Assembly (NCBI GenBank): GCA_963971425.1
Contig: OZ020522.1
Coordinates: forward strand, 4,686,168 to 4,750,167
Length of the DNA stretch: 64,000 bases
Source of the DNA: Bryoerythrophyllum caledonicum
Taxonomy: Eukaryota; Streptophyta; Bryopsida; Pottiales; Pottiaceae
Reading direction: 5' to 3'
Positions 1 to 62,664 of this stretch are shown here, piece after piece. The notes beneath the pieces were generated by a model, which saw only the letters and a list, made by a program, of their open reading frames with translations, did no database searches and was not told where the DNA came from. Position 1 is the stretch's first letter, and each line of letters starts with the position of its first letter. A program made the position numbers and the translations under genes.

Positions 1-781
1 GTTCAGGCTGCATGGCTCCCTTGGCAACAAGCTCTCTCCAAAAGTAGCGAAGCACTGCCCTCTTCATCGATCTCTCACACTCGGGCTGCGTTAGAAACTC
101 CTCGGTCTTCGTGAACCCAATCTTCTTCCCCACATGGGCAGAAAACGCTTTGTCCCACAGCCTGATGCACCACGATTCGATCCATGCTCCAATCCCTTTC
201 ACGGGATTGGGAAGCCCTTCCGTCTGGATGACAAGATTGTCCTCCTGGACAATCTCCGCAAATTTCTTCTCACATTCGTCTTCCAGCTGAAACCAACCAA
301 ACAACAAGTTAGACATAGAAAATATTAGCAATGAAAATCTACATTAACTAAAATGCCATGATATGGAAAACTTACCCCAGCCCAGAAGGCAGCTCTATCG
401 ATCCACCCTCGAAGACTTGTGTCTGAAGCTGGAGATTTTGGGAAGTGATACTCCTCCCTGCTCAACTTGCTCATGTTCCACCACTTACACCAGCGTGCCT
501 TGAACTTTGATGGCACCTTCGCGGTACAAAAGAGTTGTAACTTCTCCGATGTCATCTCCGGCTTGAACTGGTAAATGTCAAAATGACGCAACACCTAAAC
601 AAAAGACCCACAAAATTTGTGTCAATTTGGTATACATTCAAACTAATTTGGAAATAAAAAATATGAGAAACAATGAATAGGACTGTGGACAGTAAGAAAA
701 CTTAAAAGATCAAACCTCTTTGAAGAAGTCTTCGCCATTAACCGGATTGGCAACTGCCAATAGTCGATTGAAACTGGTTTG
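1..781 (-). CDS. ParB/DNA-methyltransferase cargo gene of element A, middle exons (continues beyond window)
   Basis: Three exons are readable on the minus strand: 781-716, 594-376 and 286 to the window edge, separated by GT-AG introns with matching phase. The protein contains the block KFKARWCKWWNMSKLSREEY, which aligns with AMKVKWLERWNMKPS in the element B gene, and a later segment (GAWIESWCIRLWDKAFSAHV) that aligns with B's DWVEQMRIQLWEIAF. This is the centre of the protein, between the ParB-like domain and the methyltransferase domain; its own function is unknown. The reading frame continues exactly from the exon ending at 33400, on the other side of element B. The methyltransferase part would lie left of position 1. 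As it stands the gene is split by 32.6 kb of B. Confidence 0.75.
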
Positions 782-856
782 ACACGAGACGGGGAAAGCT
801 ATTTTGCGTGCCTTGAGCCGTGAGCCGTGAGCCTTTGGACGTGAGCCCAAAGCCAA
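782..856. repeat. Left target duplication and terminal inverted repeat of element B
   Basis: The duplication ACACGAGAC (782-790) is followed by GGGGAAAGCTATTTTGCG and by TTGAGCC-GTGAGCC-GTGAGCC units, with a further GTGAGCC after a short spacer. The right end (33330-33399) is the inverted counterpart. The heptamer units differ slightly between the two ends. Confidence 0.9.
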
Positions 857-1625
857 AAAGTTGGAGAAAAAAAGTAAAAGATAGTAATTTTTTATGAAGA
901 TATTTATAATTTTAGTATAAAACTTGGACCTATTACCGTGGATTAAATAACAAAAGTTTCAGTGCTTACAGTTATTTTAATAAAAATTTACGATGGAACA
1001 CTCCATATATTTTCATATAAAGAACTAAAGGTTTTAGGTTTATGGAACCTTAGGGAGAAGGAGAGGTCCGGATGTGGATGATTACGGTGAGGGAGAGGTA
1101 TGGAAAGAGACAATTAAGGAGATGCCCTTGTCTAGTTTAGGGACAATTTTGGAGAGAAATATTCTATGGTCTCGGAGAATTATTGAGAGTTCTAGACAAG
1201 GATAATAAGACAATCAGAAAGTTTAGGATGGAGAGGATTGAGGATAAGGGAAATTACGATAGGGAGACTTCATGGACACGGATAAGCAGGTAGGAGGACT
1301 GCTGGAGAGACAGACTTTGAGATTGATAGAGAGATGGAGAGTTTGGAATAGGGATAAATAGGGAGAAGAAGAATTTAGAATAGGAAGTAGGTATGGGTGG
1401 AATTTAGGGTTGAGGATTTAGGGCGTAGATGGACAAAAGAAAGTGATATAGACGAGGGCATTGGGTTTAATGTAGCGGGGAAGTATTTTCCATCATCAAA
1501 TGGTGCATGCAGGGTTTAGAGTAGTGAGGTATGTTATTTAAAACTCAAAAAACTGTGGCCCTTGTAGTCTCACAGCATTCTCATAAGTAGTAGTACAATA
1601 CAAAGTTCTGATACACTTGAGATTA
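857..1625. other. Subterminal region of B, no gene seen
   Basis: This purine-rich stretch (many GGAGAGA and GGATAAGG runs on the plus strand) lies between the terminal repeat and the transposase stop codon. It probably holds the transposase 3' untranslated region. The matching interval in element A (61930-62611) has similar length, about 0.7-0.8 kb. No convincing reading frame was seen. Confidence 0.6.
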
Positions 1626-4600
1626 CTAAGGACCATAATGTTTAAGAAGTAGAACTTGGAGAATCCGCATAATCTCGTACCAACTAAAACTAGGACTGTG
1701 GATGAAGACATCTACCTCCGGATCTAGTCCACAAACAATGTTGAGGATGTAGTATAAGTGCTTACAGTATGCCCATGCCCCACGTTTGCCAAGTGACTTC
1801 TTCAACATCTCTGTAAACGCTGAACAATCGCAACTTGGAAACTGTCCAATGGTAACCAAATACCTTGATACTTGTGAAATGGATTTGGACTCGAACGTGA
1901 CAATGCAACCCAATGCGTTAGGAGGAACCATACGAATCCTACAAATCTTACCAACAATAGACAATGCAGAAGCGCAACTGTTGAGCTGCTTAGTAGTAGG
2001 TGCATTGGCATTCCTGCGGATATTTTTACCATACCTCTTCTTAGGGTGCTCGTCAGGGTTGGGAGGAGTAGGATAGGCCTTGAGGTCCAAGGAGGCGACT
2101 TCGTCAACAAAAAGCTTTCGAGGGGAAAGCTCCACGTGTTTAGCTAGGCAAAAACCTGCATTCTCCAAGGCAAGAATCTCCTTCTTTGTGAGGTTTGTTC
2201 CCATCTTGATAGGCCACACGTCTGGTACTTGTGGCCTGGTCATTACCCACCTCCGTCTTGTGCCCTTCACACATCGCTCAATGTCGTCGTTGCAAAAGAA
2301 GAATTGCATTATCTCTTCCCTAGCCTTCCTGAAGTTATCCATGATACCAATGTACGTAGGGGCGGCGGTGGGCTTACGTTCTTGGATGATCATGGCAACG
2401 CATTTCTTATTCGTTTGCGCTTGTTGAGCAAAACATTTTTTTGCAGATCGGCTGTGGAGTCTAGCGATATGCCACTGCCTTTCATTGCAGACGGTCTCCT
2501 GAACTGCTTTGACATGCTGAATTCGAGGCGAAGAAGGTGGAGTCTTGGACGGGACGTTGTCTTCAACCTCTGGCACTGCATCCAACTCCTGGGGGCAGTC
2601 CTCCTTGGTCAGGTCCACTATTTTGCGATTACTTTGTCGTGTTCTGACCCGAGGCCGTGATACACTAATCTTATCAGGTGGGTGGGAGTCAAATTCTGAA
2701 CCTGGAGGAAGGTCAGCCTTTTGTTTTAGAGAAAGGAAGACTTCCTCACCTTCAAGGTGAGGTTCACGAGTACAGAAGGTGGCAGCGCCAGGCATGTTGG
2801 CGAGGGCCACGTGGAGAACTTTTGCATTTCCAGACCGCTCTGCTGTACGTTGGGCGGTACGTAGTCGAAGTTCTTCCTTGGTTGGTCCGGTCCCAGCCTT
2901 CTCACCCTTTAGAAATTGATAGTAAGCAACAACTTGCATGAAGGCACGTACCATGTCATCGACGGTTGCCACATACAAATCATTGCCTCTCTTGCCTGAT
3001 TGTTGCAACCACTTGTTGTGGATGGTTTCGGCAAGATTGCAGGAAGGCATCTCCGCCAACTCGGATAGGGACATATTCTGCGAAGACGACAAGATGTTAG
3101 CTCCAAATAATAATTACGTGACCTGGCGTACATGTGAACATTGTTTGGAAACTCATCCAGATGCACCACTCAAGGTTTAGGACCATGCACTCTTACAATG
3201 ACCACCTTGGAGGTGGTGTCGTTAGCAGCACCTTCATAAAAGGGTACACTGGGTATTCATGATCATAGGAAAAGAGTAAGGCTGAAAAAATATATAAAGG
3301 TGAATAACAAGTGCAGAAGACTTACAAGTTCCATAAAGCCCCCCCATTGTCTATATCGAAAATGCCAGAACGCCAGCCACAGATCAAGACGTGGGAGGCC
3401 CTCCTCTGTTGCTGCTCCTGATGATAACCACCATGATCGGATTGCAAGGTACTTTGTTTCAGCCTCTTCCATTGACTTGGAGTCCTTATATTGTTTGCAG
3501 AGTCGTTTGTGTTGATCGCGTAGGTCTGCCCTGATATCTGCCTGTGTGTGTTTTTCCAAAGATTGGACCCAATGGAAAAGGCACGTGCGTTCTCGATTGG
3601 GCATGTGGACCGTCTTGTCGCCATTCCCATAAATTATGCGCACTGCAATCCAGTTCGATTGGGCGCTGTAAGCCATGAATCCCTTAAAATTGGGATTTTC
3701 AATGCCGTGACGAGCAGCAACTGCGTTGAGATTCTTCCAGAATAGCACTTGGGCATTGGCGTCTTCGGACATCATGTCGCACACAGCAATTGTCATCACT
3801 CGACAGTACGTGGAGTCGTACACATGACATGCCATCGTAGTCCATGCCTTGTGGCGCTTGACGTGGTCAAACATCATCCACGACTCCTCCAAATCACCTC
3901 CAGGCTGCATTCGATTCACCAAGTCGACGCCACTCGCTGGTCCCAATTCTGACATCTTGAATATGAATACCTTGTCATCTTCTTTACCTTGCCCCGGAAA
4001 GCGGTTTTCCTGTACAAAGGCCCAGTTGCTCGAACCTCTGAGCTTGGTGATGCTACCCTGTTCCCCGTAACGGCGGAGGTGCCTAAAAGTAGTCACCTCA
4101 TTCCGGATACTCGGAGAGGACATCTGCTTGAATTTGTCTAGCAGTGGGACAAGTTCAACAAAACTTAGCGTCTTCTTTGTAACACCATCAGGGCAGAGAA
4201 GTAACTCTCCAAGATAGTCTTTGCTTGCCTCAAGGACAATGGACGAGCTTGTTGCGGTAGGTGTCCTCTCAACCTGCTCTACGATGCGAGTCTTGAGTAT
4301 GTGTGCTGATTCCCTGCAAATTCCCGTCCTAACCAAATGACTGTGGAATCCCAGATGGACACACGCTCGGCTCTGATGACTCTGGCCGAGGACATAGTAA
4401 ATTTTAGCGGGACACGTTTTTAAGCAAGTAGGAGGGGTCCGACATATCGAACAGACGACAGTGGAGTTAAGAGGGGGGTCACAACCAGGATCAAAGGGAG
4501 AGTCCGCGGTGCCCTCCCATTCAGTTTCATTCTTTGGAGAAGTGCGATGGATTCGACTCAGGTAGTCGCAAGTGGGATTGGTGCACTGGAGATTCCCCAA

Positions 4601-5449
4601 GCAAGAGGACATTCTAAACGTGAGGTTGTACTCGGACTTAATGTGGGACGTGATTGTCCGGGTCCAGGCATTACCGTCATAAGCTTTGTCCATCCCCTCC
4701 AGAAGTCCAGCCTTAGACGATCGCTTGTAGTTACCCAGTGAAGGAAGCTCAAAGATCCGGTCACCGTCAAAAGTAACAGGAAGGACGTTCACCTGTTCTA
4801 TTGTCATGGCAGTATAATCTAATTTACTCAATACCGACCTAGCTCTTTGACGAGTACTGAGATTTCGGAGGCATTCCACTATACTAGCAGGAGCTAGTCT
4901 AGACGGTGCAAAGGGTGGTTTCATTCAAGAAGGGCCTGCAGAAACAGAAGGAGTCGCAATCGGAATGTGTGGACTAGGCTCCGACTTTGGAAATGTGCTA
5001 CTTGGGGTACTAGGAAAGCACTCAGTGTCGGAGTCGTCACTGAGAATAAGGATGGTATCTTTATTGGGTTCAATTTTCACCTTAGACAAGAGCGGTGTCA
5101 CCTCTTCAACAGTTGAGGGTTGTCTAGGAGTCAACATTACAGATGGAGTACCGGATTCACTAATCCTTGTCCCATACACTCGGTACTCTCCTGATTTCAA
5201 CAACCACACTTCGCAATCCTCACAAATACTAGAGATCTGAGCTACAGTATGGGAAATCTTTCCACTCTCCTTATGATAAACATCCTTATCAATGTGCAAG
5301 CCTCTCTCTGCTAGCTGAAATCGTGAAGCTAGTCAACTAGACTTTACAATAGCGTATCCATCCTCAGATAGATCGAATGAGATAGGTACTTCCTGCACAT
5401 TTCCACGGATGAGTACACTCTGGCCAAGATGATCCTCAATAGTAGCCAT
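1626..5449 (-). pseudogene. MULE transposase of element B (decayed)
   Basis: Two exons are inferred: 5449-3326 and 3077-1626, with GT-AG junctions at the same place as in element A. The protein would cut and paste the element using a DDE/RNase-H fold. In order there is a Cys-rich segment (SCLGNLQCTNPTC; CSICRTPPTC), the MULE core (first acid in MMFDHVKRHKAW; CLFHW; EEAETKYLAIRSWW) and a C-terminal SWIM zinc finger (CDC near codon 1860 bp, YCKHLYYIL near 1760 bp). Signs of decay: an in-frame TGA at 5335-5333, another at 4927-4925 directly before the next ATG, and the second catalytic acid region reads FMAYSAQSNW where element A has FMADSAGANW, so Asp is replaced by Tyr. It is probably inactive. 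The start at 5449 (MATIEDHLG) was chosen by alignment with A's MASLTSHQG. Confidence 0.85.
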
Positions 5450-6049: not shown

Positions 6050-9000
6050 ATGAGTCATTGTGAGAGAATGCCAAGGAAGAAGTTTTGTTTCAGTAATAGG
6101 AAGACCATGTTGAGGAACAAAGTGATGAGAGAAAAGAAGCAGAGTGCTAGAATTGCAGAGATTGGTGAGACGGCGAAAGTGTTAGAGTTCTCCGATCATG
6201 TTGTTCAGAGTGGGAAAATGAGTGAAGAGGATAGTCAAGACCTCGAAATTATTCCCGCGATTGTCCAGGGCCTTGGACAACTGGAACATGGATCCCTTAG
6301 TAGAAGCGAGAGTCACAGAACAACACTCGAAGCAGACATGGCATCTGGAGACCCATACTCAAGGCAACCTTCTTTACAATCACGTAATGTACATGATTGT
6401 TAACCTTCTAGACATTAGTACATGTGAAGTCAATAAATGCGAAAAGATATCTAGAGACTCTGAATTACACCGTGAGAACCAGAAGTGGTAACAAGAAGTT
6501 TTTGTTCCATGTCCTAAAGTGTTTAGCTCATATTGTTTAGAAGTCAAAGAAATCCACACATTGAGAAGTTTTCATTTGCAGCTTCGAAGATATAACTTCA
6601 GCTTATAGTTTTGTGTCATTTTCAAGCTTGGAGATGTTTGCAAGTAATGTTGGCGGCTCTCTATTACATTGTGAGTTGTGTTTTTAGAAATTGAAGTGAT
6701 GGATGAATACTCTCTTTCATTGTCAGCATGTATGATTCCTCATTATGAAGTTTACAGAACTAGGCGGCTGATATAGGGTTTGGTCAAAGCTGTTGGTGGT
6801 GTTTGAGGTCGTTGTGGACAGTGGAGTAGGAAGGTTGCTCGCAGTCTTGTTTGAGGTCGTGGTTGACAGTGAAGTAGGAAGGATGCTCGCAGTCAGAGTA
6901 TATAATTGAAACAAGTTACTACTAGAAGGGTTCCGAAATTAGGTTTTCAACTTGGATCTAGGAATTGGAATTTGAACTTGTAATAGGGTTTTGAACTTGG
7001 AATTTGTTGATGTTGATTTGCAAGGGAGAGGTATGGAGGTTTAAAGGTGGGAGCTAAACTCTTGTTGTTGCCGCAGACGAAGAAGAAGAGATTCAGACGC
7101 AGCTACGGCGGAAGCGAAACTCATCACGTGCGAGGGTTACCATGGCAGGTCAGTTCATTGTTTTGCAAGACTTACTAATTTGGATTATGAATGTTTCCAC
7201 AAACATCTTAACTTCGAAGGTCTGAACTTAATGTAAAGGTCTGAACGAGGTCTTAAGAAGTTTGAAGAGGTCTGAATATAACTTAAGTCTGAACTGGGAG
7301 GTCTAGAATATCCTCTTGCAAAACTAGGAGGTCTAGACTCGTAGCTTAAGTCTGAACGAGGTCTGAAGAGGTAGTTTAAGAATGTAACTTAAGTCTGAAC
7401 GTAACTTAAGTCTGAACTAAATGTAAAGAAGGTCTAAACGAGGTCTGAAGAGGACTGAACGAGGTAGTTTAAGAAAGTTCATTAGTTACAAGTTTATGGA
7501 ATCAACCTGAACTACAGCAACAACGTTATGTTCTAGCTAGAGTTAAAAGTGTGATATTCTAGCAATCGTGGTGCAGACGAACTTCTAGCAGAAACCCTTG
7601 AATTGAATGTGTAGATGTAGGTTCACTATATATTCCTTTGTTTGGAGTTGATTCATGTTCATTTTTTGGCAAAGTACAATACTAAAGGTTATCATGCAGT
7701 TGAAGTCAGATATTGCAGTAAGATGATAAGTTTGTTATCGCAGCATCTAGGTTGTGGACAGGAAGTTAGATACACAATGTTGAAACGAGTCGATAGCACA
7801 ATGGTCTGAAACTCATGATACTGAAGTAAGATACTCATGATAAATGTCGGCAAGAAGCTTGGTAAGATACTCATGATACTCATGATAATGAATCTGCGGT
7901 GAGATACTCATGATTCAAAAAGCTAGGTTCTCGGCGATGATGGTGTAGAATGTTTTATGGTTTTTTTTTTTGCTTGAACTCTGAGCCTGGGTTGATAAGA
8001 ATCCGGAGCTCTCGAAATAATGTGTTATGGAAGAAACTTATGATACAAACTCATGAATCTTCGGTGAGATACTCATGATTCAAAAAGCTAGGTTCTCGGC
8101 AGTGATGGTGTTGAATATTTTATCGTGTTTTTTTTTGCTTGAACTCTGAGCCTGGGTTGATAAGAATCTGGAGCTCTCGAAATAATGTGTTTTGGAAGAA
8201 ACTTATGATTCAAACTCATGAATCTGCGATGAGATACTCATGATTGAAAAAGCTAGGTTCTCGGCGATGATGGTGTAGAATGTTTTATCGTGTTTTTTTT
8301 GCTTGAACTCTGAGCCTGGGTTGATAAGAATCTGGAGCTCTCGAAATAATGTGTTATGGAAGAAACTTATGATACAAACTCATGAATCTTCGGTGAGATA
8401 CTCATGATTCAAAAAGCTAGGTTCTCGGCGATGATGGTGTTGAATATTTTATCGTGTTTTTTTTTGCTTGAACTCTGAGCCTGGGTTGATAAGAATCTGG
8501 AGCTCTCGAAATAATGTGTTTTGGAAGAAACTTATGATTCAAACTCATGAATCTGCGATGAGATACTCATGATTGAAAAAGCTAGGTTCTCGGCGATGAT
8601 GGTGTAGAATGTTTTATCGTGTTTTTTTTGCTTGAACTCTGAGCCTGGGTTGATAAGAATCTGGAGCTCTCGAAATAATGTGTTATGGAAGAAACTTATG
8701 ATACAAACTCATGAATCTTCGGTGAGATACTCATGATTCAAAAAGCTAGGTTCTCGGCGATGATGGTGTAGAATGTTTTATCGTGTTTTTTTTGCTTGAA
8801 CTCTGAGCCTGGGTTGATAAGAATCTGGAGCTCTCGAAATAATGTGTTATGGAAGAAACTTATGATACAAACTCATGAATCTTTGGTGAGATACTCATGA
8901 TTCAAAAAGCTAGGTTCTCGGCGATGATGGTGTAGAATGTTTTATCGTGTTTTTTTTGCTTGAACTCTGACCCTGGGTTGATAAGAATCTGGAGCTCTCG

Positions 9001-12000
9001 AAATAATGTGTTTTGGAAGAAACTTATGATACAAACTCATGAATCTTCGATGAGATACTCATGATTCAAAAAGCTAGGTTCTCGGCGATGATAGTGTAGA
9101 ATATTTTATCGTTTTTTTTTTGCTTGAACTGTGAGCCTGGGTTGACAAGAATTTGAATGTGTTTTGAGAGAAATTGAACAAGCATGGCTTCCTTCTACGA
9201 TCGTGCAGCAAGTCAGATTTTGTAGTAGAAGTCAATTATCGTAACTGTTGAGTTGAGTCATGCAACATTGAGTTAGATTATCGTCCAGCGTCGAGTTCAA
9301 ATACAGTTACTGCTGAGTTGAGTTCAGATTGTCGTGCAATGCACTGTTGAGTTGAGTCCAGGCTACAATGATCTGAAACTGATGATACTGCATAGCTTAT
9401 GAAACTTATGAAACTTAGAGTCTAGATTAGAGTGAGAGGTCGTGGTGTTGTGGAAGACACACTCCGATTGTGGATTATGCTTCTACTCGCTAATGCGTTT
9501 TTGTTACAACTATCAGGTTGCTTTCTAAGTTCTAACATGTCTCGAAGGAGACAACGAACTTCATGAGTCCTGTCACCGACGGTGTGCTTCTGATACATCA
9601 AACCACGACTGAAATTAAGTTGTGGTTTGCCACAACTTTCACGTAAAACAGGGATGATATGCCCCTCGTTCAGAAAAATCATTAACGGAGCAGTGTATTA
9701 ATGGAGTAGTGGTTTAATGGCCGGTTTGGTGAATTGTACGAGGACACCTGTGAAGCAAGTGCCGCTGGCGGCACCTCCTTCACAGGGTCCTACCTAACAA
9801 GTTTGCAATCGGTACTGAGTAGAGTGACGTATTTTGCTTTGTCATGTTCATGAATCAATCAGTCACAAGTTAACTACTATAATTTGAAGTCCACTTTAGA
9901 AGTTGAAGTTCAAGTTACTACTATAAGTTTATGTTGTGCATCTTGAACTTTTGTAACCGTTTTTTGGATGGTCATGTGCATTTCCAACATTGTGTTCTTG
10001 TCTCTTGCTTCATGTGCAATACTGAAGATACTTCATGATACTTCTGATATTGAGAACTTATGAAATTCATGATACTTTATGATACTTCTACATGTATAAT
10101 ACTGATGATATTGCAATGAGATGAGTAGAGGCTTTTATGTAGATTATCGTGTAGCAAGTCGGATACTGCACTTGAAGTCATATACCGTAGCATCTAGCTT
10201 GTGAACTGGAATTTTGAAACGCTTAGTTGAGATGAGTCGAGGTTCAACTCATAAGTTTCAGATCATTACAGAAGTTCAAGATCATAAGTTTCAGTTCATA
10301 AATTCAAGGTCATAAGTTCAAGATGAGATGAGTAGAGGTTCAAGATCATAAGTTACAGATCATAAGTTTCAGATCACTGTTGAGACGGGCAGGTGAATTA
10401 TACGAGGACACCTGTGAAGCAAGTGCCGCTAGCGGCACCTCCTTCACGGGGTCCTCCCAAACTTGTGAGTGTTCCCTACATGCACGAAATTGGCATATTG
10501 GCACTGTTTCACTTATAATTTGTAGGCATGTTTATCAAGGCTCGTACCTTGGGTTTGCTGATTATTCAACCATCTTTCATTTCAATGTCACTTCACTTGA
10601 GATCTTTCAGGTTTTTGAATTGTCAATTAGAGAGCTGAACCACTTCATGATTAAATTCAACAACATTCATGTAGAATATTTAGGCAACCAGTGATGTATA
10701 TTTGTGATTTGATGGCAACGAATATGCATGCACTTATTCCTTCATATAATCATATCATCAATGACTATTTGTTGGTGTTTGTCCCACTGTTAAATTAATA
10801 GTTAACCCGAATGCTTTGTTGCAGACATGGAGATTGAGGGCGTGGAACGCGAAGTCGACCAAGTAGACAACGAGCAACCTCCAATTCGAGAAAATTCAGG
10901 TATCAAATGCAACTGAATTGTTGGAAGCGGTTCCGTAATCTCCACTTTTTGTTTAACCAATCTCTAGATGCAGGGATCAATCACAATAACAATGAAGACA
11001 ATGAGATCAATTTGGAGGATGAGAACGCCGATGATGATCTTCGGGAGGAAATGTCAGCCGAGGATTTGGGGAGAGAGATGGACACACTAGTATTGCAGGA
11101 ATCAGTGAACACAAGTCTTGTTCTGGAGAAGCTACGGATGAAGCCACGGAAGAAGTCCAAGATTGATATCCCATTGTGTCGAATGAAGGAAGTATTGGCG
11201 GTGAGGCCGCCCCTCTCAAACGACGTCAGCTCTTTAGGGGCTCACTTTGTGAGCACTGGGTACATGGAGGGTCATGGCGTTTTCTATGTTGCATTGCAAA
11301 ATGATCAGGGAAAGACACTTGACGTTAGCGAGGAGATTATTCTTGGATGGAGTCCATTGTGGAAGAAGAAGAATGAAGAGTTTGAGGCACAATTGCTCGC
11401 AGATGAAGACTTGATGAAGTACTCGGGTAAGATGTTCTATGTTTGGGATGGGAACCATCGTCTCAAAGCTTGGCTGGAGATCATCAATAGAGACCACGAT
11501 GATGACAGTGATTGGCATTACGCAGTGGAGTCGATTATCTTGGATGTTCCAACAGGTTCGACAGGACCTCTCGTGACTGCACTCCACCAAGTCAACTGGT
11601 AAGTTTTGATTTCTTGAAATTTTTAATTTTTTTAAATTTGTCTATTTTGTCCTCTAACTCCACCCACTCCTTATGCAGGCGGAACCAGAGGTGCCACGTA
11701 AAATCAAATCTGGTCCACAAGCTTTATAGAATTCAACGAATTGCTGGGCAACCCCTCTCTTATTTTGAGAACCTTGTGACCAAAGCTGAAATTGATGATG
11801 CGATTGCAAAACAGGATAGAACTCCAACATGGTACACGCTTACTCTTAAGGGACTTGTTGGAGTACTATATCAGGTACTATTCACCTGTAAGAACTACAT
11901 TTTATTTATTTGACAACCTTTATCAATCAAATGTTTGATCATTCTCCTTGAAAAGGCCTTGAAGAGGTAGTTGTATGCCATCAACACCTCCTGAAGGGAG

Positions 12001-47592: not shown

Positions 47593-47596
47593 TTTA

Positions 47597-48987: not shown

Positions 48988-49003
48988 TAGTGTACTAGAA
49001 ATA

Positions 49004-49389: not shown

Positions 49390-49439
49390 TAACTACTGGA
49401 TTTGTACCGTTAAAGTGAAAGCAAAATGAAGTGAAAAGT

Positions 49440-51330: not shown

Positions 51331-54300
51331 ATGGCTGAAAGGTAAAATCCATGCTTCTCATCCAGGAGCCCTAAACCCTACGCCTTCAATATCATATAAC
51401 GAAAGACGGATCTGACAAACTGCAATAAATAAGCTCTTCAATGAACACAGTTTAGCTCGAGTCGAGCTAAACTGGGACATCGATATTGCACTATTGTCCA
51501 CACTTTAGCTCGACTCGGGCTAAAGTGGGCTTCCACTGTGCAAAATGGGTCACACTTTAGCTCGACTCGAGCTAAAGTGGGGCCACCACTGAGCAATATG
51601 GCCCACACTTTAGCTCGAGTCGAGCCAAAGTGAGATCCCCCGTGTGCTCTTGTGGCTGCATTAACCTCGACTCGAGATAAAGTGCGCTCTCCAGTACTCC
51701 TTAGGCTTTATTTAAACTCGACTCGAGGTAAACTATGGCCAATAAAGCACACTGGAGAGGGCACTTTAGCTCGACTCGAGCTAAAGTGTGATCAATAGTG
51801 CACAATGGACGCCCTGTAAAGCTTGAGTCGAACGGAAATGTTCGACTTTATACGTCTATGGTTGCGCCAAAGCCGGCTACAGGAACAGTAATCATAATGA
51901 CTTCTTTCAAACTCTCGGTGTGAAAAATGTCATGGCCTTCCAGTAAAGCCAACACTCTTTACCTCGAATCGAGCTAAAGTGTATGACAATAAACTTAAAC
52001 AACTCAAACACAACTACACTCAAACTTTAAACACTCCAAAGGTATAGTAAACCAATGATATCGACGACCCAACTCATGTCCACTTATCGTCAAAATCTCA
52101 CATGTAAGCAAGAGCTTCAGTCACGCTTCAACCACTTGAGGACCTCAAAGAGTGAGGTTCGTGAGTGATTTAAGGGTGAACTTAAGCTCTTTCGCAGTTC
52201 TGAGAGTTAAACGATAAGTAGCCATGATTTGAAAATAGATGTATAGGAATTTCGTTTGAATGAATATTGTAAGTGTCAGAACTGTTCAGCTATGCAATCC
52301 ATGCATGAGCACTTTAGCTCGAGTCGAGCTAAAGATGAAGCTAAAACTTGAATACAACATTGATACATTGGTGTCATTGCAGTCTCCTAACTCAACTCAC
52401 GTCTACTTTTCGTTCACCTCTCATAAATCGTGCAAGAGCTTCAGTCCCACTCCAACCACTTGAGAACCTCAAAGAGTGAGGTTCGTGAGTGATTTGAGTG
52501 TGACCTGAAGCTCTTTCACAGTTCTGAGAGTTGAACGAGAAGCAGGCATGAGTTGATTGTAAGCGTCTAAGCGAACGGTCAAATTGACTAGATTTTCTTG
52601 CAGAGCATTATTTACATACTTGAATTCAGTTACACATTAGCTTGAGTCGAGCTAATGTGTGACCTCGCCATCCTAATCGGATGATTATTAAAACAATCTA
52701 ATGTTTGTGCTCCGTTTCGTGTTTGTACAGATCTGAGAGGGACAGGATGGTGTCTCAACTGCAGCACTTCTTCCAGCCAAAGCCTGTCGACATTGACGAT
52801 GACGATGGAGATGACAACAACCACTTAGATTGCTGGGAGCTCAAGGATCCTTCGATGACACTGAAGTGGACGCTGCTGTGGGCCCCCTACACTAAGAATC
52901 TAGTGTTTGGTCAGACCTTCGCTGGTGATATCCATGAACCCCAGCACATCGACTTCAAGACCAAAATCATTGATGTAGTCCACGAAGATAACGATATAGT
53001 GAAGTTGTCGTGTGAGACAACCACTGAGTCTGTCGATCCTTATATGTTCACTATTGTAGTGAACAATACTTCGTCTCCCTTCTGTATCTTCGACTTAGTC
53101 AGTTCTCTTAGGGGGTCACAGTTTGATGACATAGTGGCTCAGGTCGACCAGGAAATCTCCCAAAAGAAATGGGAGACTAGTAGTGGTCAGCTGCTGAAAG
53201 CAAAGGCTGTCGCGAACAAACTCCGCGTCATTCTTTCCAGAATGAGTACTTTTGCCGCTCTTGAGAAGGCGAAATTAATCGCGTCTAGGCGCCCAATAGA
53301 ACTTTCGGTAGTTTCTGGTGCCGTAACAGGTAGCCAGAATATAAGTCAAGCATCGGTACCGGTAAGAACTCCAGGTGCAAGAGCAAGTCGAAGCACCCTG
53401 CGCAACACGCTGTCAGCGTCTCCTGTCAAGAAGCGCTCAGCTGCCAAGAAGCCGGAGACTTCTTCCAGGAAGAAGACGAAACTCGTTTCAGAGGAAGAGT
53501 TGGCCAATTCGATGGCCTCTGCACTGTTGGAACTCCCTTCGGCGCTCGGGTTCGGAGAGGTAACAGACTACACCAACGTCCAACAGATATATCAGAAATT
53601 CTGGATGGAGTGTCAGAGCTGTTTTTTCCAAGGAGACAGAGAGATGAAGATCGAGCTTGATGTGATGAGGCTGCATAATGCACCGCCGGAGTGGACGATC
53701 CGTGCATTCGAACCTCGCGGTATGGAAGAGTTGAAGCATTACTACCTCGAAATGCCGGACAAGACTCAGAAGCAGACTCTCTACGTCATGCCGAAGCTCG
53801 ATCATATGCCAACGAAGGTTGAGGAGCTCAGCGACTGCGACTTCTATATCATCAACGGCCAGCACAGCGTTGCTGCATCAAAGTCGATGATAAACGGTAC
53901 CGTGCCGGAGGTTATGAGAAGGCACTTCCGGACATGGCAGTGTTACATTGTCTGGACGGAGGACCCTGAGAAGCTGAGGAAGATTTCCGCGTATAATAAT
54001 CGCGTAAATCACTTGGTCCAATTCAAGCCGACCTGGGCAACAAATATCCTTGGCTCTCGCGCGTTGTGGATCCAAGCTGGAAGACCGATGCCGAAGCACT
54101 CCGCCGCAGGCATTCACGGGTCCCATAGATCAGGTCGGAGAACGGCAGTGGAGATTGCCAATGACAAGAAGTTTGAGGTAATTACTCTTAACGACGGTCA
54201 TGCACTTTAGCTCGACTCGAGGTAACTTCTGTGCTTGTCCTTCTTAGTAATGTTCTGTATACAGATTCGAGCACTTAGAGTGTACACTCTCCGGTTCCAA

Positions 54301-57300
54301 GTTAGCTCGACTCGAGTTAACCTACATTTTTGGTTCCTGCTGGTTTTGTTTTTTTCCCTCTGTGGTTGTACGCTAAATCAACACTGCCAATGTTCTGCGC
54401 AGCCATTTCTAAACGCGGTTCGTGAGCGCTTCGCAATGATTGACGTCGCCAAAAGCCAGGCAGCGCTCAAGAAAGCCGGAAAGGCGAAGGAGCTCTCGAT
54501 TACGAACGAGGTGAAGATTATCACCTCGTCCGATGAGACCTTCAAGCTGTGGTCGGAAGTCATCTCTTCGGCGGCACAAGGCGACCTCATCAACGTGGAT
54601 TCAACAACGTCGCCCTTGTCAAAGTTTAAGGACGCCAAGTCCTGGGTGCCTGAGAAAGATGGGGTATTGACGCGCGAGTTCTTCAAATTTTTCGGCAATA
54701 TGACCGAGGCTGATCACGCAATGCTGTGTAAGCATATTCTTAATCGATCAGGGCCATCGCGAAAACTACCTTATCCAAAGGTGGTTGTAAAGCAGCCGCA
54801 ATCAGTGCTGGAGGATTGCTACAGCGCCCGGGACTGGGTCGATCGAAGGAAGAGGAAGGAGGTCGCTCGGATGGAGCTTCAGTTGATCAGGCCGGAGCTC
54901 GCCTTCTTCAACAGCACTAGGGCGTACAGTTGTTCCAACTGGCGAAAGTTCAAGAAGGACTACAACGTCAGCAAGGCCTCGAAGCGTGCCCTCTTGGATT
55001 GGGGTCCACCGGATTCGTACTACGCAAACTCAAGGCAGACGCAGTTTCGCAACTGCAAATGTGAAGATCTCTCTCCGTATGCGAAGGAGTTCTTCAGAGT
55101 CTTCCTCGATGTGCGGGCGCGGTTCGTTGCACCTGTGGGGGCCTTGCACTTTCGTCCATACAAGGCGGCAACCAACTCGCTCGGTGGATGGCCCTCGGAT
55201 GCGTGGCGTAACTTGGGCTGCAACGTGAAACTCGGCATCATCGACTTCCGTAATATCCCTGGGTTTGCAGGGAAGGCGACGTCATCATTGGAGAAGCCCT
55301 TCTTCGACGAGTTCATGACAATGTTCGCATCGAAAGGGCAGCCTTCTCTCACCGGTCTTCCAGCGTGGCTCTTCATTTGCGGCGACGAGCAGTCACACCT
55401 TCAAGTGACAGCGTTTGCTGAGGGCCCGTCGTTGTGCCATGCGTACGACGTCCTGCAGTCGAAGTATCTTCCCTCCGACAACGAGCGCTTGGGGGGATTC
55501 GCGCCGAAGACCAACAACGCTCTCGACCCGGTTCGCCTCCTTTTTCTCTTCAAGAAAGAGCTTACGCAGATCCCGGCCGTGAAGAAGATCTACGCAGCTC
55601 CGGAGCATGTGTTGCACACCAAGCTACGCAAGTACAACGAGCTGGCGTACTCCATGAACATGAACGAGCTGAGAATGGAGTTCTTCATCAAGGTTCTGGA
55701 GCTGTTCTGCAAGAAAGGGGATTCTACTGTCCAGCTCTTCTGCGGGACGAAATTACTGACTGCGAGTGTGGTGAGTATCCTTGCAGTTTAGCTCGACTCG
55801 AGCTAAACTGTTGATCCCTCTCTCTGACTGTGAATGTATTGTTTCAGAGAGGTCGTCTCTCATGCTTTGTAGCGTGGCACTTTAGCTCGAGTCGAGGTAA
55901 AGTGCCGGCTTATACTTATGTGGTTTTTTTAGCATTCCTCAATCGCGTCATATTCTTCCATGTTTTAATGGCTGCGTTTTCATATCAGTGTTCTTCTGTG
56001 CTCACTTTAACTCGAATCGATCTAAAGTGTAACTTTTTTAATCCATTGGTGTGCAGATGTTGGATCTGGAGGCATTCTGCATATCCCACGACACCGATGA
56101 GCAGGACCTCGACGACGCCCAGGATGTAGCGTTGACGTTGGATCGGGCCGATTTCGTTATTGGTTCATATCACATCAGCGCGGAGATCTTCCCTGAGCTT
56201 GGAGAGGCTATTGCCAAGGGGAAGGGGAAAGTGATTATCGATCTCGTCGATGAGGAGGAGGAGGATGTGGTCCCGAGCTCCATTGGTGTGTGCCCGAGCA
56301 CCAGTACGGTCACACCTGATGCCGATTCCCATGATGACTTCGATACCAACACTCCGGCGGAGCTTCATAGTGGCTCTCAGTCTGAAGCGGGAGAGACAAT
56401 GGGTACCTCGCGGCAGCGGCTCGATTTCGTGGAGTTCGAATCGCTTGATATCTCCGAGAGGCCTCATTCAGCTCCGACCTTGGGTGGGTCATCCGCTCGC
56501 CCCGCAGCCAAGAAGAGGAAAGTTGCCAGCGCGACCGGCCGCTCACCGTTGGCAACTGCGAGCAGTGCTCAGGATGACATCAGGTTTATCGCCCTCGAGA
56601 AGAAGCTCGAAGAGGAGGCCACCCGGATGAGGTTGATGGAGCAGCGGCTGGCGGAGCGTGACGAGGAGCTCAGGGATATGCAGCGGAGGCGTGACGAAGA
56701 GATGAAGAGGGACCAGGACCAGAGGCATAACGACATGATGCTGATGATGCAGAGATTCATGACGGCTACTATGCCTCCTGTCGCCACGACACAAACCGTA
56801 GTGAATTCTACGATCCCTCAGCCTCCAATCTCAGGTGACGATGAGACTAGGAGTCTGCCTCGCGGTTCGCTTCTGCCGTCTCCGGCAGGTTCCTCCCCCG
56901 TCTCCACGGGAGCTCAATCGCTGCCTGATCCCCCGTCGCCCGCTCGGGATGATTCTGTCGTTGATGTCCCCAGCTCATCGTCAGGTTAGTGTAACATAGT
57001 TGCGAATGTATAGAGCCAGAACATTTTGTAAATGTCCAATTTTGTACTCCAGTATTTTTGTTAATATTACAGTGCTCAGTGATCACTTTAGCTCGACTCG
57101 AGCTAAACTGCTTGACATGTGACGACTCTGACATTGTATCAGTGTCCAATGTGCGCATGAGCTGATGGGTTGAAGTTGTTGAATTTTTCAGATCTTAGTT
57201 TTGGTGATGACGCGATTGCTCAACCAGTCGTAGATGAGGTCGTCCAAACTGCAGTCCCGGTCGTAGAGGATGTCGTCCAATCTTCGGCCGTGATCGTAGA

Positions 57301-58287
57301 CGAGATCAATCGTGATTCTCCTGTCCAAGAGCCCGCTCTTCTTGTCCCGGAACCGTGCCCCCAAATGGTTCTGGAGCATTCGAGGGCCCTTGACACCGTC
57401 CAACTTTCATTGGAATCGATGGGGGTCCGAAACGAATTGCTTCAAGACGATGAAGTTCTCGAGGTGCTCCTCTAACACTATCCACACTCTGCGCTTCCCC
57501 ATGTTGCTTCCCCCCCGTTTGCTCTCTTCGTTCTACATTATGTTGACTTGTCGTTGTTAATGAATCTTTAGTAATATTGTTCGTTCTCCTGGCGTTTCCG
57601 AACCAGGTCTGCGAGGCATCAATAAGTGGTGCCAGTAATTTAGAAGAAATACCTAGAGTCTATTCAGATTCCGAGGGCAGATGGTTGAATGTTGTGCTGG
57701 ACCTAAATGGGATTCTATGCACTTGTAAGCCATCGTGGCAGGCCAGGGGGTCCAGGGGCTCTATCCCGTCCATTCACTCGGCCTCGCTGTCGGCCGAAGT
57801 AGGCCCTAAGCTTGTTTGGGTGCGCCCTGGTTGTGCTGAATTCCTTACGAAGTTGTCTAAGATTGCCACCATCACGATCTGGAATTCAATGATGGAATCT
57901 ACAACACGTGAGATATGTCAATATCTTTTTCAGCATAGTTCTGCGTATCCTCTCAGGATCTTTGGTCAGGAGAGTTGCGATAGGGTTCCCGAGGGTAGGG
58001 TCGGTAACAGAACAATCTACATGAAGGAATTTGGCACTCAGAAGGACATCTTCTTGAAGACGTTATCGAACCATCTCTTTAATAGGTTGGGCCGTGAGTA
58101 TACTCCGTCAAATACACTTGTCATTGACGATAGCCCGATTAAGCATGTCCTTAATTTGCCGGAGAACGTCCTTCTTCTTCCGTCATGGTCGCACAACCAC
58201 GATGGCGCGAGACATGATTCTGTACTGCTGGAGGATTTGCTACCATATCTCTCTGACCTTCATCAATTTTCGGGTGGCCTAGCGTAG
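51331..58287 (+). CDS. ParB-like / methyltransferase-like / FCP1-type HAD phosphatase protein of element C
   Basis: Exons with continuous phase: 51331-51341, 52731-54177, 54403-55770, 56057-56984, 57192-57463 and 57607 to a TAG ending at 58287, giving about 1570 residues. Order: a basic stretch (KKRSAAKKPE, SRKKTK; about 230-260, likely nuclear localisation); a ParB-like segment with FYIINGQHSVAASKSM (about 375; compare DGNHR in A and B); a long helical region; a beta-class methyltransferase-like part with VKLGIIDFRNIPG at the motif IV position and STVQLFCGTKLLTASV at motif I, both degenerate; acidic linker; coiled coil (EKKLEEEATRMRLMEQRL); then a HAD/FCP1 domain (VVLDLNGILCTC, ITIWNSM, LVIDDSPIKH). 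In the HAD signature DxDx(T/V) the second Asp is Asn. Introns carry the element's palindromes. The methyltransferase assignment is weaker than for element B. Confidence 0.7.
51440..52650. repeat. Cluster of TTTAGCTC/GAGCTAAA palindromes in the first coding intron of the C cargo gene
   Basis: At least ten sites with half-site CACTTTAGCTCGA, or close variants, lie in intron 51342-52730, near 51446, 51500, 51550, 51605, 51660, 51713, 51763, 51955, 52312 and 52635. A longer duplicated segment (AACCACTTGAGgACCTCAAAG) occurs near 52130 and 52455. Single sites recur in later introns near 54203, 54303, 55785, 55876, 56003 and 57085. Confidence 0.9.
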
Positions 58288-58667
58288 TATCGTGCTGAGC
58301 ATCCCTCGGGTCGGGAGATGTTCTATAATGATCAGAAGACGTGTGGTCAGGCTGCGAGTATTTGTAACGCAATTCAAGCCTATCAGAATCTCCGTTCCTA
58401 ATGTGGTTGGAAGCGCTTAGATCCTTAATACACTTTAGGTCGAATGGAGCTAAAGTGTTTCGTTTGACTGCAACTCGATTTTGTAAATTTTGTTGGGCCG
58501 TGTTTTGTATATATTTTTTGATAATACAAATGGTGATGTTTCTCCACCGAATTTATTGTGCGGATTGGATACCTACTGCTGGTGGAATGTCGTCCTTTTT
58601 TTAATGTTTGGAATTTTATCTATTGTTCTGAGGTATGTGAGTGTCACTTTTGTTGAAATTTCTACAG

Positions 58668-59522
58668 GGCTGTGATTGTCGGGCGTCCGTGGATTCCTTG
58701 TTGGGTCCACATGAGTTCGCCCTTTCCCTTCGGAGTAAAGGGCTTTTGTTGCACTCTGCTGCAACCGCGCAATCAACCATGGATTATTCGACCATGGCAG
58801 TGGACGACGGAGTTGTTGAAAGCCCTATTGCGCGGGAGCCAATTCATGAAATGAACAATTCACCTTCGCCGCAGTGGCCTCGTTTAGTTCCGGGGTCTCC
58901 GCCCCTAAACTTGGATAATTGTATTCCGGCAAAGCGTATTCTCTATGACGGTTTAAGGGATGCCACTCACCAACACTCGCTCACGGTGCGTGTTATGCTG
59001 ACCTCCAAGTTATTGCACTATTGAGTCGTTCTTGCCTAGAGAGTCTTGGTTTGTTGTTGAGGTACCTTGCACTCTTGTAGTTTTGCTTCATTTGAGCTTG
59101 TTTTTGTGCATTGGATATTAAATGTGCTCTGTGAATTTCACCTTCTGCATTTTAGCTCCATTTGAGCTAAAGTGCACTAGGATGGATCTTGATGATACAG
59201 TTTTTTGGTGTTGTCGTGTAGGTGTATTCGACCTAAAGTGTATTTGTTTGGATTGTTTGTGGCGCCTATTGTGCAGGAACCATCTGGTAAATGTCTTCGC
59301 CCCCGTATTCTCTCAAGAAATGCTGCTGGAATCACATGCTCTCCTTCTGCTCCCACCCGCCGTCACTTGCTGCCCAAATCAAACACGGACGAGGTGCGAA
59401 GGCGGGGTTTGCAGCGTCTTCTTGAGAGTCCATTAATGCAAGAGAATGGCGCAACATGGACTCGGCAACGTCAGAGGGCTTTTCTGAAGACGCGTATAGA
59501 GGCTTATGGAGGGACTTCCTAG
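58668..59522 (+). CDS. Two further exons or a small downstream gene in C
   Basis: Segments 58668-58985 and 59277-59522 each start after a good acceptor, and the first ends at a donor (CTCACG|GTGCG). Both are phase 0. Together they give about 187 residues ending EAYGGTS (including PRLVPGSPPLNLDN and KCLRPRILSRNAAG). I recognise no domain. They may be 3' exons of the cargo gene by alternative splicing around the HAD exon, but I found no strong in-phase donor there, or they may be a separate small gene. The intron between them again contains a palindrome (TTTTAGCTCCATTTGAGCTA near 59150), and another lies upstream near 58431. Confidence 0.45.
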
Positions 59523-59782
59523 AATGTTTGATTAGTAATAGGGCGATTGTGGTTTGCGTCGAGGTAAATGAGTGTTGTGTGTGACTTTTTTCATGGAGTT
59601 TTGAATAAAGCTTGGATTAATAGTATATGCTTCCTTTATCGTTACCACTTTTTTGGACGATAAGCTATTTTGGTCCATCCATGGTAAAAAATACAGTATT
59701 CTTGATACATTGTTTTTATGCTTTGCACTACAAATGTTTATATTTATTGATACTTCAACAACCATATTTCTCCATAGTCATG

Positions 59783-59812
59783 GAAATTTCCCAATATAAC
59801 GAATATGGTGTT
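59783..59812 (-). repeat. Right terminal inverted repeat of element C
   Basis: On the minus strand it reads AACACCATATTCGTTATATT then GGGAAATTT, the inverse of the left end. The target duplication TAAA follows at 59813-59816. Confidence 0.9.
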
Positions 59813-59816
59813 TAAA

Positions 59817-61929
59817 GGTAAAGTTTTTGTTTTTAAGATGTCTGTTGATCGTCCAGGTAGTGGTGTTGACCTTGTAAAGCGTATGCAAGCCGGGGGGGAT
59901 CTCCAAGATTGTTGGTTGATGTTTGATCATGTAAAGCGAGTGAAGGATTGGACTACCATGGCATGCCATGTCTATGATAGTAAGTATTGTAGAGTCATGA
60001 CAATCGCCATGTGCGACATGCAATCGGAGGACGTTGAAGCCCAGCAACTGTTTTGGGAGAATTTGAATGGCACAATGAAGAACCACGGGCTAGAGGAGAC
60101 AAATTTCAAAGGCTTTATGGCAGATAGTGCTGGAGCGAATTGGCACGCCGTCCGGCGAGTTTATGGCTCCGGCGACAAGGAGAAGCCTATGGATAACAAA
60201 GAACGGACTTGCTTATTTCATTGGACCAAATGTCTTCAGCGAGCCACCAACAAAAACATTCTACCCAGCTTCAGAGAGCAACACATCGCCCTTTGCAAAG
60301 TCTGGAAGAACGCAAAGACTCAAGAGGAGGCTGAAGCGCAGTACAACGTAATTCGTGCATGGTGGGTGTCTTCTGGTGCCACAACCGAAACTGGTCGTCG
60401 TGCCCTAGAGGATTGGATGGCGTTCTGGCACTTTCGATATCGACAATGGGGCGGTGCTATGCAACTTGTAAGCCCTCTTTACCCATTACTTTTAAAAACT
60501 CCCATGTTCAATATAAGTGAGACTTTTGATCATTTTTGTGACATTTATTGTACTTTCTCAGGATCTCACGCTTGACGAGAGAGCCGACATGCCTTCCTGC
60601 AACCTTGCGGAAACAGTCCACAACCGGTGGCTGCAACAATCTGGAAATACAATGACATGTTTGTACGCGGCAACCGTGGACGACCTCATTCGTGCTTTCA
60701 TGCAGATCACTATGTATCGGACATGGTTGAAGGGTGGCACGTTTGGTAAAGGCCCGGACAAAGGTACGCTTCGTTTGCGGTCTGCGCAACGTTCAGGTGA
60801 TCCTAAACTCATTGCTGAGGCTGTTAGGAACTTTCCTGGGGCTGAGGATCTACTAACCAGGACGGACGGCTTAGAAGGAGCAGAAATTTTTGGGTCCACC
60901 AAGCGCAAGCTTGACATGCCACCTGGGTCTGCCCATGATTCCCACAGATCTGATACGGTAAATTACTCTATCCCCCGTGATGGCCGAAGGGTGACTCGAG
61001 CGCGTATTGAAGAAGCCTTCACCAGACAAGACTTTGGAGTCCAACATACAACATCCGTTTTGGAATCGGATTGTGATCCATCGAAGTGGCACATTGCCCG
61101 CCTCTCAAAAAAGTCTGCTCGAAAATGCCAAGCCTTGCAAGCTCACACTAGTGAGGAGTGCAACACTAAGGTTGGGCGTGGCAGTCATGGGACTCCAGCC
61201 CCCACATATGCTGGTATGAAGAAAGATTACAGATCACCACGGAATGTCTCAGCTGAATTCTGGTTTTGTCCCGATGACATTAATCGTTGTGTGAAGGGGT
61301 CGAAAAAACCATTTGTGGTTGATTGGCCAGCAATTCCAATGACTTGGCCTGTGAAGCTTGGCACTAATTTAACAGTGCAGGAGGTACAAGCGTTGGAAGA
61401 AGTAGGTTTCCAGTTGCAGCAGCGTGGAGTTCTTTCACCACGAAGACAATTCCAAGTGTCTATGGACATGCCCCTTCCGCGATCGCACTTTCCTATTCCA
61501 GTGAACCCGAATTCTTACCACACCTTTCGAAACGGCTATGCGATTCGTAGAACAACAGATGTTCCAACAACTGAGCAACGCAACAAGTGGTCAAGCGCCG
61601 CTCTTATGAATAATTGTTACGTCTCCAACCTCTATGCCATACCGTATCCCGGATGGGGATGCGTTATCACTCTTCATTCAGGAAAGGACAAGTCCTATTG
61701 CATCACCTTCACAGACCTTCCGGGGTGTTCATGCCCTGATTTTTTGAAGATGCAATCGGAGGCATTGGGAAAGAAGGGACAATGGAAGTATTGCAAGCAT
61801 GTCTATTACATCTTACGTTACCTTTGTAAAATGGATTACAAAGAGGACTTATTCATACATGCTCCAAGCTACAGCTTCAACGAAGTCATGCGGATTCTAG
61901 AGCTTGCAAACATTGCCGAACAAGAGTAA
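59817..61929 (+). CDS. MULE transposase of element A, C-terminal part
   Basis: The exons are 59817-60467 and 60562-61929, with a GT-AG intron at the same site as in element B. The part begins GKVFVFKMS, directly continuing FPGQSK at 40062. Catalytic core: CWLMFDHVKRVKDW (first acid), FMADSAGANW (second acid, present here but lost in B), CLFHW, and EEAEAQYNVIRAWW (candidate third acid). A C-terminal SWIM zinc finger reads CSCPDF ... YCKHVYYIL (about 61730-61820). All recognisable motifs are intact; the only obvious damage is the 19.75-kb insertion of element C. Confidence 0.9.
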
Positions 61930-62611
61930 GAAACGAAATGATGTCGTATTTCTCGAAAAAATCTACAATCTTAGATTGCTCAGACGTAGTTGCAGATTCG
62001 TAGACGTGCACGTGAATTTAGTTCATGTACTTATTGAGTTTGTTATGATTTGTTAATTGGCGTACTTCACATATACTACCATACGCAATGGAGAGTTTTG
62101 TACTAGTTGAATTCAAAGTGGAGACTATGAACCTTTTCTAAAAATCCCTTTGGATTTATGTAAGTGATCCCATTTACTGCCCATGTGATGATCTTGTAAT
62201 ACGTGGATGATATCCAAGTAATGCCTATGTGATACCCGTTATAAACCTAGGCAATACCCTTTTGATACCTATGTAATACCCTGCAGTATACCTTGTATCC
62301 AAATTAGTGGATATTTATACATAATAAATTTTGTCATGCCTAAACCAACATTTTAAACCTGATGTACAAGATTTAAATGTGATCATTCTAAATTTAAAAA
62401 TAGTAGACGTAGATTGTAACAAAAGCACAAGAAGAGAAGAAGGCCCAATAGTCCAAAAAAATTGTTCCACAAGTGACCACGGTTATAGGGTATTTACTTA
62501 ATTTAGCAATTAGAAAAGAAAAGTGCTCCAAAATTCATAGTTTTGCCCAAATTGCCGAAAATTTCACACTTAAAAAAAAAACTGTGATTTTTTTCCAGTT
62601 TTCAGAGTTTT
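61930..62611. other. Right subterminal region of A, no gene seen
   Basis: Contains short repeats of TGATACCTATGTAATACC type (about 62160-62290). It probably includes the transposase 3' untranslated region. Confidence 0.5.
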
Positions 62612-62664
62612 GTACGCTCGCCGCTCGCCGCTCACCGCTCATCGCTCACAAGATAGCGTCGCTG
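62612..62664 (-). repeat. Right terminal repeat of element A
   Basis: Read outward on the plus strand, units GCTCGCC-GCTCGCC-GCTCACC-GCTCATC-GCTCAC lead into AAGATAGCGTCGC. The inverse (GCGACGCTATCTTG then TGAGCG units) matches B's AGCTATTTTG then TGAGCC units. The exact outer base is uncertain by a few positions because the left partner is outside the window. Confidence 0.75.

Follow-up and report, generated by a model that had tools for sequence, protein, structure and literature searches.

Transposon cargo genes with ParB-like and methyltransferase-derived regions accompany element-specific palindromes in a moss, and may encode self-recognition proteins

A 64,000-nucleotide stretch of the genome of the moss Bryoerythrophyllum caledonicum (NCBI GenBank assembly GCA_963971425.1, contig OZ020522.1, positions 4,686,168 to 4,750,167 of the forward strand; C10:4686168-4750167 in the host genome of 437 Mb and 894 contigs that we searched), hereafter the window, consists of intron-containing, plant-type DNA in which three DNA transposons are nested. 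Element B is the outermost and contains both element A and element C, while a gypsy long terminal repeat (LTR) element lies in turn within A. Each of A, B and C combines a transposase gene with a divergently transcribed, spliced cargo gene, and these cargo genes, together with short palindromes dispersed through the non-coding DNA of each element, are the subject of this study. An earlier note, made from the sequence of the window, had described the three cargos as carrying a ParB-like segment and a beta-class methyltransferase-like part. Its account of the elements and their genes stands, as do the methyltransferase of A and, for the C family, a ParB-like and a diverged methyltransferase-like region; for A and B, the ParB part holds at the level of a motif.

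Element A (791-33399), which resembles Mutator-like elements (MULEs), interrupts the cargo gene of B. Its two ends form an inverted alignment of 38 bp (94.7%) and are flanked by a 9-bp target duplication (GTCTCGTGT/GTCTCGTAT, 8/9 alike). Its cargo gene (10827-15620, plus strand) has nine exons with GT-AG introns and an open frame of 1127 amino acids. Its transposase gene (1626-5449, minus strand; exons 5449-3326 and 3077-1626) encodes a Cys/His tail that we take to be SWIM-like and has two in-frame stops ahead of its end; stops are also found in the transposase exons of many of the 78 relatives listed, and A is possibly mobilised in trans. The gypsy element occupies 19804-32982 (plus strand), with LTRs of 2757 bp that are 99.9% identical and a 5-bp duplication, GAAGT.

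Element B, likewise MULE-like, has its left end beyond the window. The 5′ exons of its cargo gene (34567-33400, minus strand), which include a DGNHR ParB-like motif (FFVWDGNHRHTAW), continue past the A insertion with the middle exons (790-1, minus strand), and the remainder of the gene, with the methyltransferase, lies beyond the window; the earlier note had said this, correctly, of the element that it labelled A and that is B here. The B transposase gene (38614-40062, 59817-60467 and 60562-61929, plus strand) is interrupted by C and yields an open frame of 1155 amino acids once C and one intron are removed. In Pfam, the transposases of A and B match only PF00872 (E 0.013-0.17). Element C (40063-59812; 19,750 bp), which lies within this gene, is flanked by the 4-bp duplication TAAA and has the inverted ends AACACCRTATTCGTTATATTGGGARATTT. 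Its transposase (41071-43902, minus strand) contains DUF7869 (PF25273, E 4.2e-41), and C is provisionally called Sola-like, with DUF7869 as a candidate Sola transposase domain. Its cargo gene (52747-54177, 54403-55770 and 56057-56987, plus strand) encodes a ParB-like region (INGQHSVAAS) and a methyltransferase-like region, followed by an exon for a NIF/FCP1-like phosphatase (57607-58289, plus strand, border approximate; PF03031, E 3.6e-18).

The palindromes differ from element to element. In A, seven copies of AGTGCCGCTAGCGGCACT (up to four mismatches; core TGCCG-N4-CGGCA) lie between 9758 and 12462, two of them upstream of the cargo gene and five in its third intron; in B, 15 copies of AACCACCTTCGGATCCGAAGGTGGTT (up to six mismatches) lie between 34835 and 36627, one in each unit of a 126-bp tandem array; and in C, 31 copies of CACTTTAGCTCGASTCGAGCTAAAGTG (up to six mismatches) are spread over 40630-59174, with 21 between the transposase and cargo genes, eight in cargo introns and two past the end of the transposase gene. 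All of them (7/7, 15/15 and 31/31) lie in their own element and none within another; at the same thresholds the gypsy element has no match to any of the three, and 20 dinucleotide shuffles of the window gave zero matches. None of the 53 palindromes overlaps a coding exon as drawn. Stray matches to the C core occur three times outside C in the window at up to three mismatches; at up to two mismatches, control DNA (five stretches) has two and the MULE loci described below have two as well. At least two CpGs are present in all seven A, 13 of the 15 B and 22 of the 31 C palindromes, a content that could make binding to them sensitive to CG methylation.

Many palindromes are arranged in arrays (44285-44591 and 51448-51788 in C, 34835-36627 in B, 11999-12445 in A, and one in locus L045), whose periods are 46-47, 52-53, 125-127, 127-128 and 63-64 bp. 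Whole numbers of helical turns fit into 52.5 and 126 bp but not into 47 bp. A separate tandem repeat in A, with eight units of 164 bp (7888-9249, plus strand), is palindrome-free. Upstream of the B cargo exons, a minus-strand open reading frame (37337-37723) is perhaps a further 5′ exon, in which case the B array would be intronic. Finally, an extra, third copy of the C terminal repeat (CCCAATATAATGAATATGGTGTT) lies inside C at 47540-47600, flanked by palindromes with a different centre (TATTA/CAATA); a nested or composite relative may lie within C.

Both kinds of cargo recur in the host genome. The A transposase exon is found in at least 78 places (of 3068 first-look candidates), of which we sampled 20, with 98 to 70% identity to that of A, together with the 10 kb that lie 5′ to each. 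A-type cargo matches lie divergently beside all 20 of these transposases (part of the match is inverted in L041), and the second cargo exon of C is present in at least 93 copies (of 1627 candidates), 88-100% identical and 53 of them stop-free; the arrangement is not confined to the window.

The A-type dyad TGCCG-N4-CGGCA, with one mismatch allowed, occurs 172 times across these 20 loci, with between 1 and 21 sites per locus, in addition to the seven sites in window A, and none of these 179 lies inside a cargo-coding match, coding being counted here as cargo matches only, with transposase exons outside it. At the same tolerance, it occurs once each in C and in the C-type relative L017, and not at all in B, the gypsy element, the C-type relative L016 or five control stretches (50 kb). 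Its spacer is fixed: with both half-sites exact, 106 sites in the 20 loci have a spacer of 4, and none a spacer of 0-3 or 5-12, while the divergent arrangement of the same half-sites occurs five times over all spacers, and the controls and the rest of the window hold one pair with a spacer of 4 and one with a spacer of 2. The half-site is common to the A-type relatives, and the flanking and central bases vary by family. Among 116 distinct sites, complementarity is found at the first outer pair in 65 (1000 shuffles: mean 36.7, maximum 53) and at the third in 48 (mean 36.0, maximum 49).

A comparable pattern is seen for C. A scan of GTDB with the C family gave, as two of 52 pattern matches, the contigs L016 (CADCWO010000269.1) and L017 (CADCWO010000243.1), which are binned under Synechococcales MAG AVDCRST_MAG81. 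The cargo that they encode is of the C type and interrupted by introns (42% identity to that of the window, 77% between the two), which is why we take the two contigs for probably misplaced moss DNA with which the bin of a reference genome has been contaminated. Each contains eight clear sites with the core AGCTCGASTCGAGCT, L017 also a ninth at three mismatches, and some of these lie in two cargo introns whose counterparts in window C also carry sites. Beyond the sites, the intron sequence is unalignable with that of the window (masked z -1.2 to 2.0; the intron pieces are one to two bases off, and as the first L017 piece includes about 48 bases of exon, its z of 2.0 may be too high). The arms read ATTCAGCTC..GAGCTGAAT in L016 and L017 and TTTAGCTC..GAGCTAAA in the window, and have thus changed symmetrically. 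In an alignment of 47 sites, from which the three-mismatch site of L017 was left out, changes in both arms account for 58 cells, against 22.2 ± 3.6 in shuffles, and the covariation score of 0.253, against 0.098 ± 0.013, was reached by none of 500 shuffles and lies far above slid controls. Since related sites inflate such tests, we consider the change of the arms between species the better argument.

On the protein level, the C-terminus of the A cargo is clearly a beta-class methyltransferase. It matches N6_N4_Mtase (PF01555) with 28.2 bits at a cut-off of 26.7, DpnA in the PDB with E 1.5e-6 (CcrM is also among the matches) and DNA methyltransferase families in PHROG with a best E of 4.6e-9, and a profile-profile comparison with eight phage and plasmid enzymes gave P 9e-14. 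Motif IV precedes motif I, the beta-class order, and motif I, which serves S-adenosylmethionine binding, is present with its preceding P-x-x-K context. The ParB-like motif DGNHR is found at residue 183; in PHROG, the ParB matches of A and B are weak (E 0.39 and 0.46).

For the C family, a set comprising the window, Ceratodon, Physcomitrium, L016 and L017 was compared with small profiles built in-house, and matched an 11-sequence ParB profile with P 0.00097 over 76 columns and a methyltransferase profile with P 0.0008, its methyltransferase-like region being diverged and lacking a Pfam match to PF01555. The crossed comparisons, with ParB and methyltransferase swapped, gave P 0.46 and 0.19, and the scores without L016 and L017 (29.3 for ParB, 25.8 for methyltransferase) exceed the maxima of 40 column shuffles each (18.5 and 21.5). 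Of the 22 members of the C-family alignment, 16 match the NIF/FCP1 phosphatase PF03031 (E up to 10; best 2.3e-12), and in the moss relatives the phosphatase, ParB-like and methyltransferase-like regions form one predicted protein, the phosphatase being of the CTD (carboxy-terminal domain) type. Most moss cargos are 1040-1590 amino acids long, and one predicted protein has 716. The cargos of A and C resemble each other only weakly (ParB, P 0.029-0.03; methyltransferase, P 0.089 when A is taken by itself, 0.0072 when the MULE-type profile is used), and the exchange of cargo between the element types that the earlier note had proposed is not borne out, since independent capture or a very old divergence fits this likeness as well.

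The methyltransferase part has lost its catalytic motif IV. In A, DFPD replaces DPPY; among 17 readable loci of the 20 (L028 is misaligned there, and L030 and L033 are not covered), DFPD occurs in three, EFPD in one, DIPD in three, DLKD in eight, DLRD in one and DVPE in one; and the six rows of the C family read DFRN (window, L016 and L017), DFRF/DFWF (Ceratodon) or DLRE (Physcomitrium). No A-type or C-family copy read has an intact DPP[YFW] motif, while seven bacterial and phage enzymes aligned with A keep D-P-P-Y in six cases and D-L-P-Y in one. Judged by this motif, the methyltransferase part is probably a pseudo-enzyme, barring unknown chemistry.

Despite this loss, the A-type cargo is under purifying selection. 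The ratio of nonsynonymous to synonymous substitution rates (dN/dS, Nei-Gojobori) was obtained for 13 pairs, seven of them diverged, three saturated and two very recent, with L037 and window A as the thirteenth (methyltransferase region only, 0.33). In the diverged pairs, the ParB region has values of 0.02-0.10, the middle region of 0.08-0.23 and the methyltransferase region of 0.19-0.42 (six values, probably inflated where matches enter introns); the two very recent pairs give 0.37-0.67, plus one methyltransferase value of 0. The C-family cargos are open and roughly 31-50% identical across mosses. That the cargo does something useful for its element, as the earlier note supposed, is supported by both observations. 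Every one of the 20 homologous proteins listed for the cargo of C comes from a moss (16 from Ceratodon purpureus and four, P0017-P0020, from Physcomitrium patens), and one Ceratodon cluster, P0001 (90% identity), represents 139 sequences. For the A cargo, 5.8 billion proteins held no homologue at E≤1e-3 or E≤0.1, with about 8000 candidates scored each time and the former search perhaps swamped by a coiled-coil stretch, and viral contigs, searched with A1 and A3 as well as with a ParB seed, gave no confirmed match.

Given these observations, we cautiously favour, on balance, the reading that the cargo is a transposon-encoded self-recognition protein, similar to VANC or to the ParB-parS system; self-recognition appears to be the likeliest service that it renders to its element. 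The fixed spacer, the dyad symmetry and the symmetric change of the arms point to a site for a symmetric protein dimer, and, because three nested elements carry three different sites, the binder should be element-specific. We favour the cargo as this binder because the sites crowd around and inside its gene, far from the element ends, and because VANC21 offers a parallel. In the proposed mechanism, a cargo dimer would bind the putative dyad sites in the introns and intergenic DNA of its own element, TGCCG-N4-CGGCA in A-type MULEs and AGCTCGASTCGAGCT-centred palindromes in the C family. The ParB-like part may provide dimerisation or DNA loading, and the methyltransferase-derived part, its catalytic motif lost, may read the palindrome. 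From there, the cargo would act on the whole element, most likely by counteracting its silencing by the host, in the manner of VANC in VANDAL MULEs; this outcome is suggested by analogy. A bolder version, which we offer tentatively and with more doubt than confidence, is a eukaryotic ParB-parS-like system, in which a cargo protein composed of a module of the ParB type and a dead methyltransferase of the beta class would read element-specific palindromes, load there and coat the element, which chromatin or the silencing machinery of the host would then treat as a non-target. Two apparently unrelated types of transposon would have arrived at this solution, with protein and palindrome changing together between families.

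A number of observations weigh against self-recognition by the cargo. The ParB assignment of A and B is motif-level, a single motif whose P of 0.058 became 0.085, and thus did not improve, when the loci of 20 relatives were added, and Pfam finds a ParB domain in neither the A, the B nor the C-family cargo proteins. Furthermore, the CTP (cytidine triphosphate)-binding arginine patch, given as GERRFRA for Spo0J (PMC7022226), reads NGQHS in the C family; the DGNHR of A and B retains one of its arginines. As to the sites, those of A and B lie partly in tandem arrays and hence are not independent, L035, L036 and L043, which form one family, have merely one to two per 10 kb, and L016 and L017 possibly stem from one species. 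The N4 centre of the A-type dyad, considered as a part of the palindrome, was rejected, being self-complementary in 34 of 116 sites and not above shuffles (28.3, maximum 44). In the C-type alignment, two stricter measures of covariation are not clearly above shuffles: pairs changed on both sides number six against 5.2 (reached by 173 of 500 shuffles; three and 180 of 500 for the window alone), and further pair types 19 against 16.0 (29 of 500; 106 of 500 for the window alone). Lastly, the aligned cargo codons are stop-free in only nine of the 20 relatives' loci, the others having one to nine stops by a count that overestimates, as it gives one stop for the open window copy.

The chief rival, which we consider rather unlikely, holds that the palindromes are transposase sites, acting as transposition enhancers or in synapsis, and that the cargo has another role. 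Some plant transposases bind repeated sites within their elements. Moreover, as transposase and cargo travel together in every sampled locus (20/20 for the A type), the sites fit either protein alike and co-occurrence cannot separate the two, a further point against the cargo reading. The sites crowd, however, upstream of the cargo gene and within its introns and are not subterminal: those of C lie at least 567 bp from the element ends, and those of A are about 9.0 kb away from its left end and, leaving the LTR element out of the count, about 7.8 kb away from its right end. These distances are too large for subterminal transposase sites in the strict sense, which we rejected, keeping the transposase as a binder in weaker form. 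It is improbable, too, that the palindromes are ordinary promoter or enhancer elements through which a host factor drives the divergent genes. Many of them do lie between these genes, but others are found in introns far downstream and past the transposase end, the palindrome is a different one in each of the three elements, and a single host factor would not account for element-specific, symmetrically changing sequences.

Still less probable, in our judgement, is that the cargo retains amino-methyltransferase activity and marks the DNA of its element at the palindromes, an idea put forward both in the earlier note, as a way of marking the element's DNA, and by the authors of a study on Ectocarpus. 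The methyltransferase homology of A is clear, many palindromes have CpG or GANTC/GATC-like centres, and CcrM, which methylates GANTC, is among the PDB matches of A. Marking by methylation is nevertheless unlikely because DPP[YFW] is absent from all readable copies, the 17 A-type loci as well as the six C-family rows, whereas the bacterial and phage relatives keep D-P-P-Y or D-L-P-Y. The least probable explanation is a neutral origin, in which RNA hairpins, tiny mobile palindromes or quasi-palindrome correction gave rise to the sites and tandem duplication spread them. The regular periods of the arrays (46-47, 52-53, 63-64 and 125-128 bp) would suit it; the persistence of the core in otherwise unalignable introns, the exact spacer and the freedom of the gypsy and other elements from sites speak against it. 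RNA hairpins in particular were rejected: among imperfect cells, G-U pairs (9) are fewer than A-C pairs (18), which is no RNA signature.

How transposons tell their own DNA from that of the host and escape silencing is an open question, for which VANC is, to our knowledge, the plant example known. The moss cargos would add a second, apparently independent and bacterial-looking type of protein, whose methyltransferase part, by the motif evidence, is no longer an ordinary enzyme, and a dyad specific to one element, together with the protein that reads it, could serve as a tool for locus labelling or anti-silencing in plants. The parallels to VANC, from the VANDAL MULEs of Arabidopsis, are considerable. 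As described in PMC5735166, the VANC21 motifs are element-specific, lie in introns and intergenic DNA and are multiplied by tandem repeats; likewise, the cargo is an accessory protein of MULEs that is associated with a short, non-coding, element-specific motif, tandem-multiplied and diverging between families. Unlike those motifs, the sites described here are dyads with a fixed spacer (PMC5735166). The Pfam matches include no VANC-type domain; a direct comparison with a VANC sequence was not made. With ParB-parS (PMC7022226), the elements share a ParB-type protein and palindromic sites near its gene as putative targets, and they differ from it in having no parS sequence, no Pfam ParB domain and an altered arginine patch, and in being eukaryotic transposons. 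No ParA was seen in the open reading frames inspected.

As regards domain architecture, a DNA modification methylase of Streptococcus phage Javan486 (L008) likewise has a ParB-like N-terminus followed by a beta-class methyltransferase; this protein is compact (388 amino acids) and has TDPPYN, whereas the moss cargos are long, spliced in the window and without DPPY. Among the titles listed from open-licence PMC papers, none points to further genes of this kind in the transposons of eukaryotes, and none concerns palindromic sites; PMC3671162, on polintons and transpovirons, mentions ParB and DNA methylase. The closest system is Sola1-1_Ec32 of Ectocarpus, for which PMC12477816 describes a ParB-methyltransferase accessory gene on the strand opposite to the transposase and proposes self-binding and modification, mentioning green and red algal cases as well (citing Iyer 2011; Petroll 2025); the word stem 'palindrom' is absent from the main text of that paper. 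Like C, it is a giant DNA transposon (21.5 kb, against 19.75 kb for C) with an opposite-strand cargo of about 1100 amino acids that combines a ParB-like part with a methyltransferase of the N4C/N6A type, a likeness of architecture (PMC12477816). ParB-methyltransferase accessory genes are thus already in print for algal transposons, including Sola1. What distinguishes the present case is the occurrence of such genes in a moss genome, in elements of the MULE-like kind besides a Sola-like one, the inactive-looking methyltransferase without motif IV, the NIF phosphatase fused to it in C and the likely target sites (compare PMC12477816), and these listed candidate sites make the algal idea of a protein binding its own transposon directly testable.

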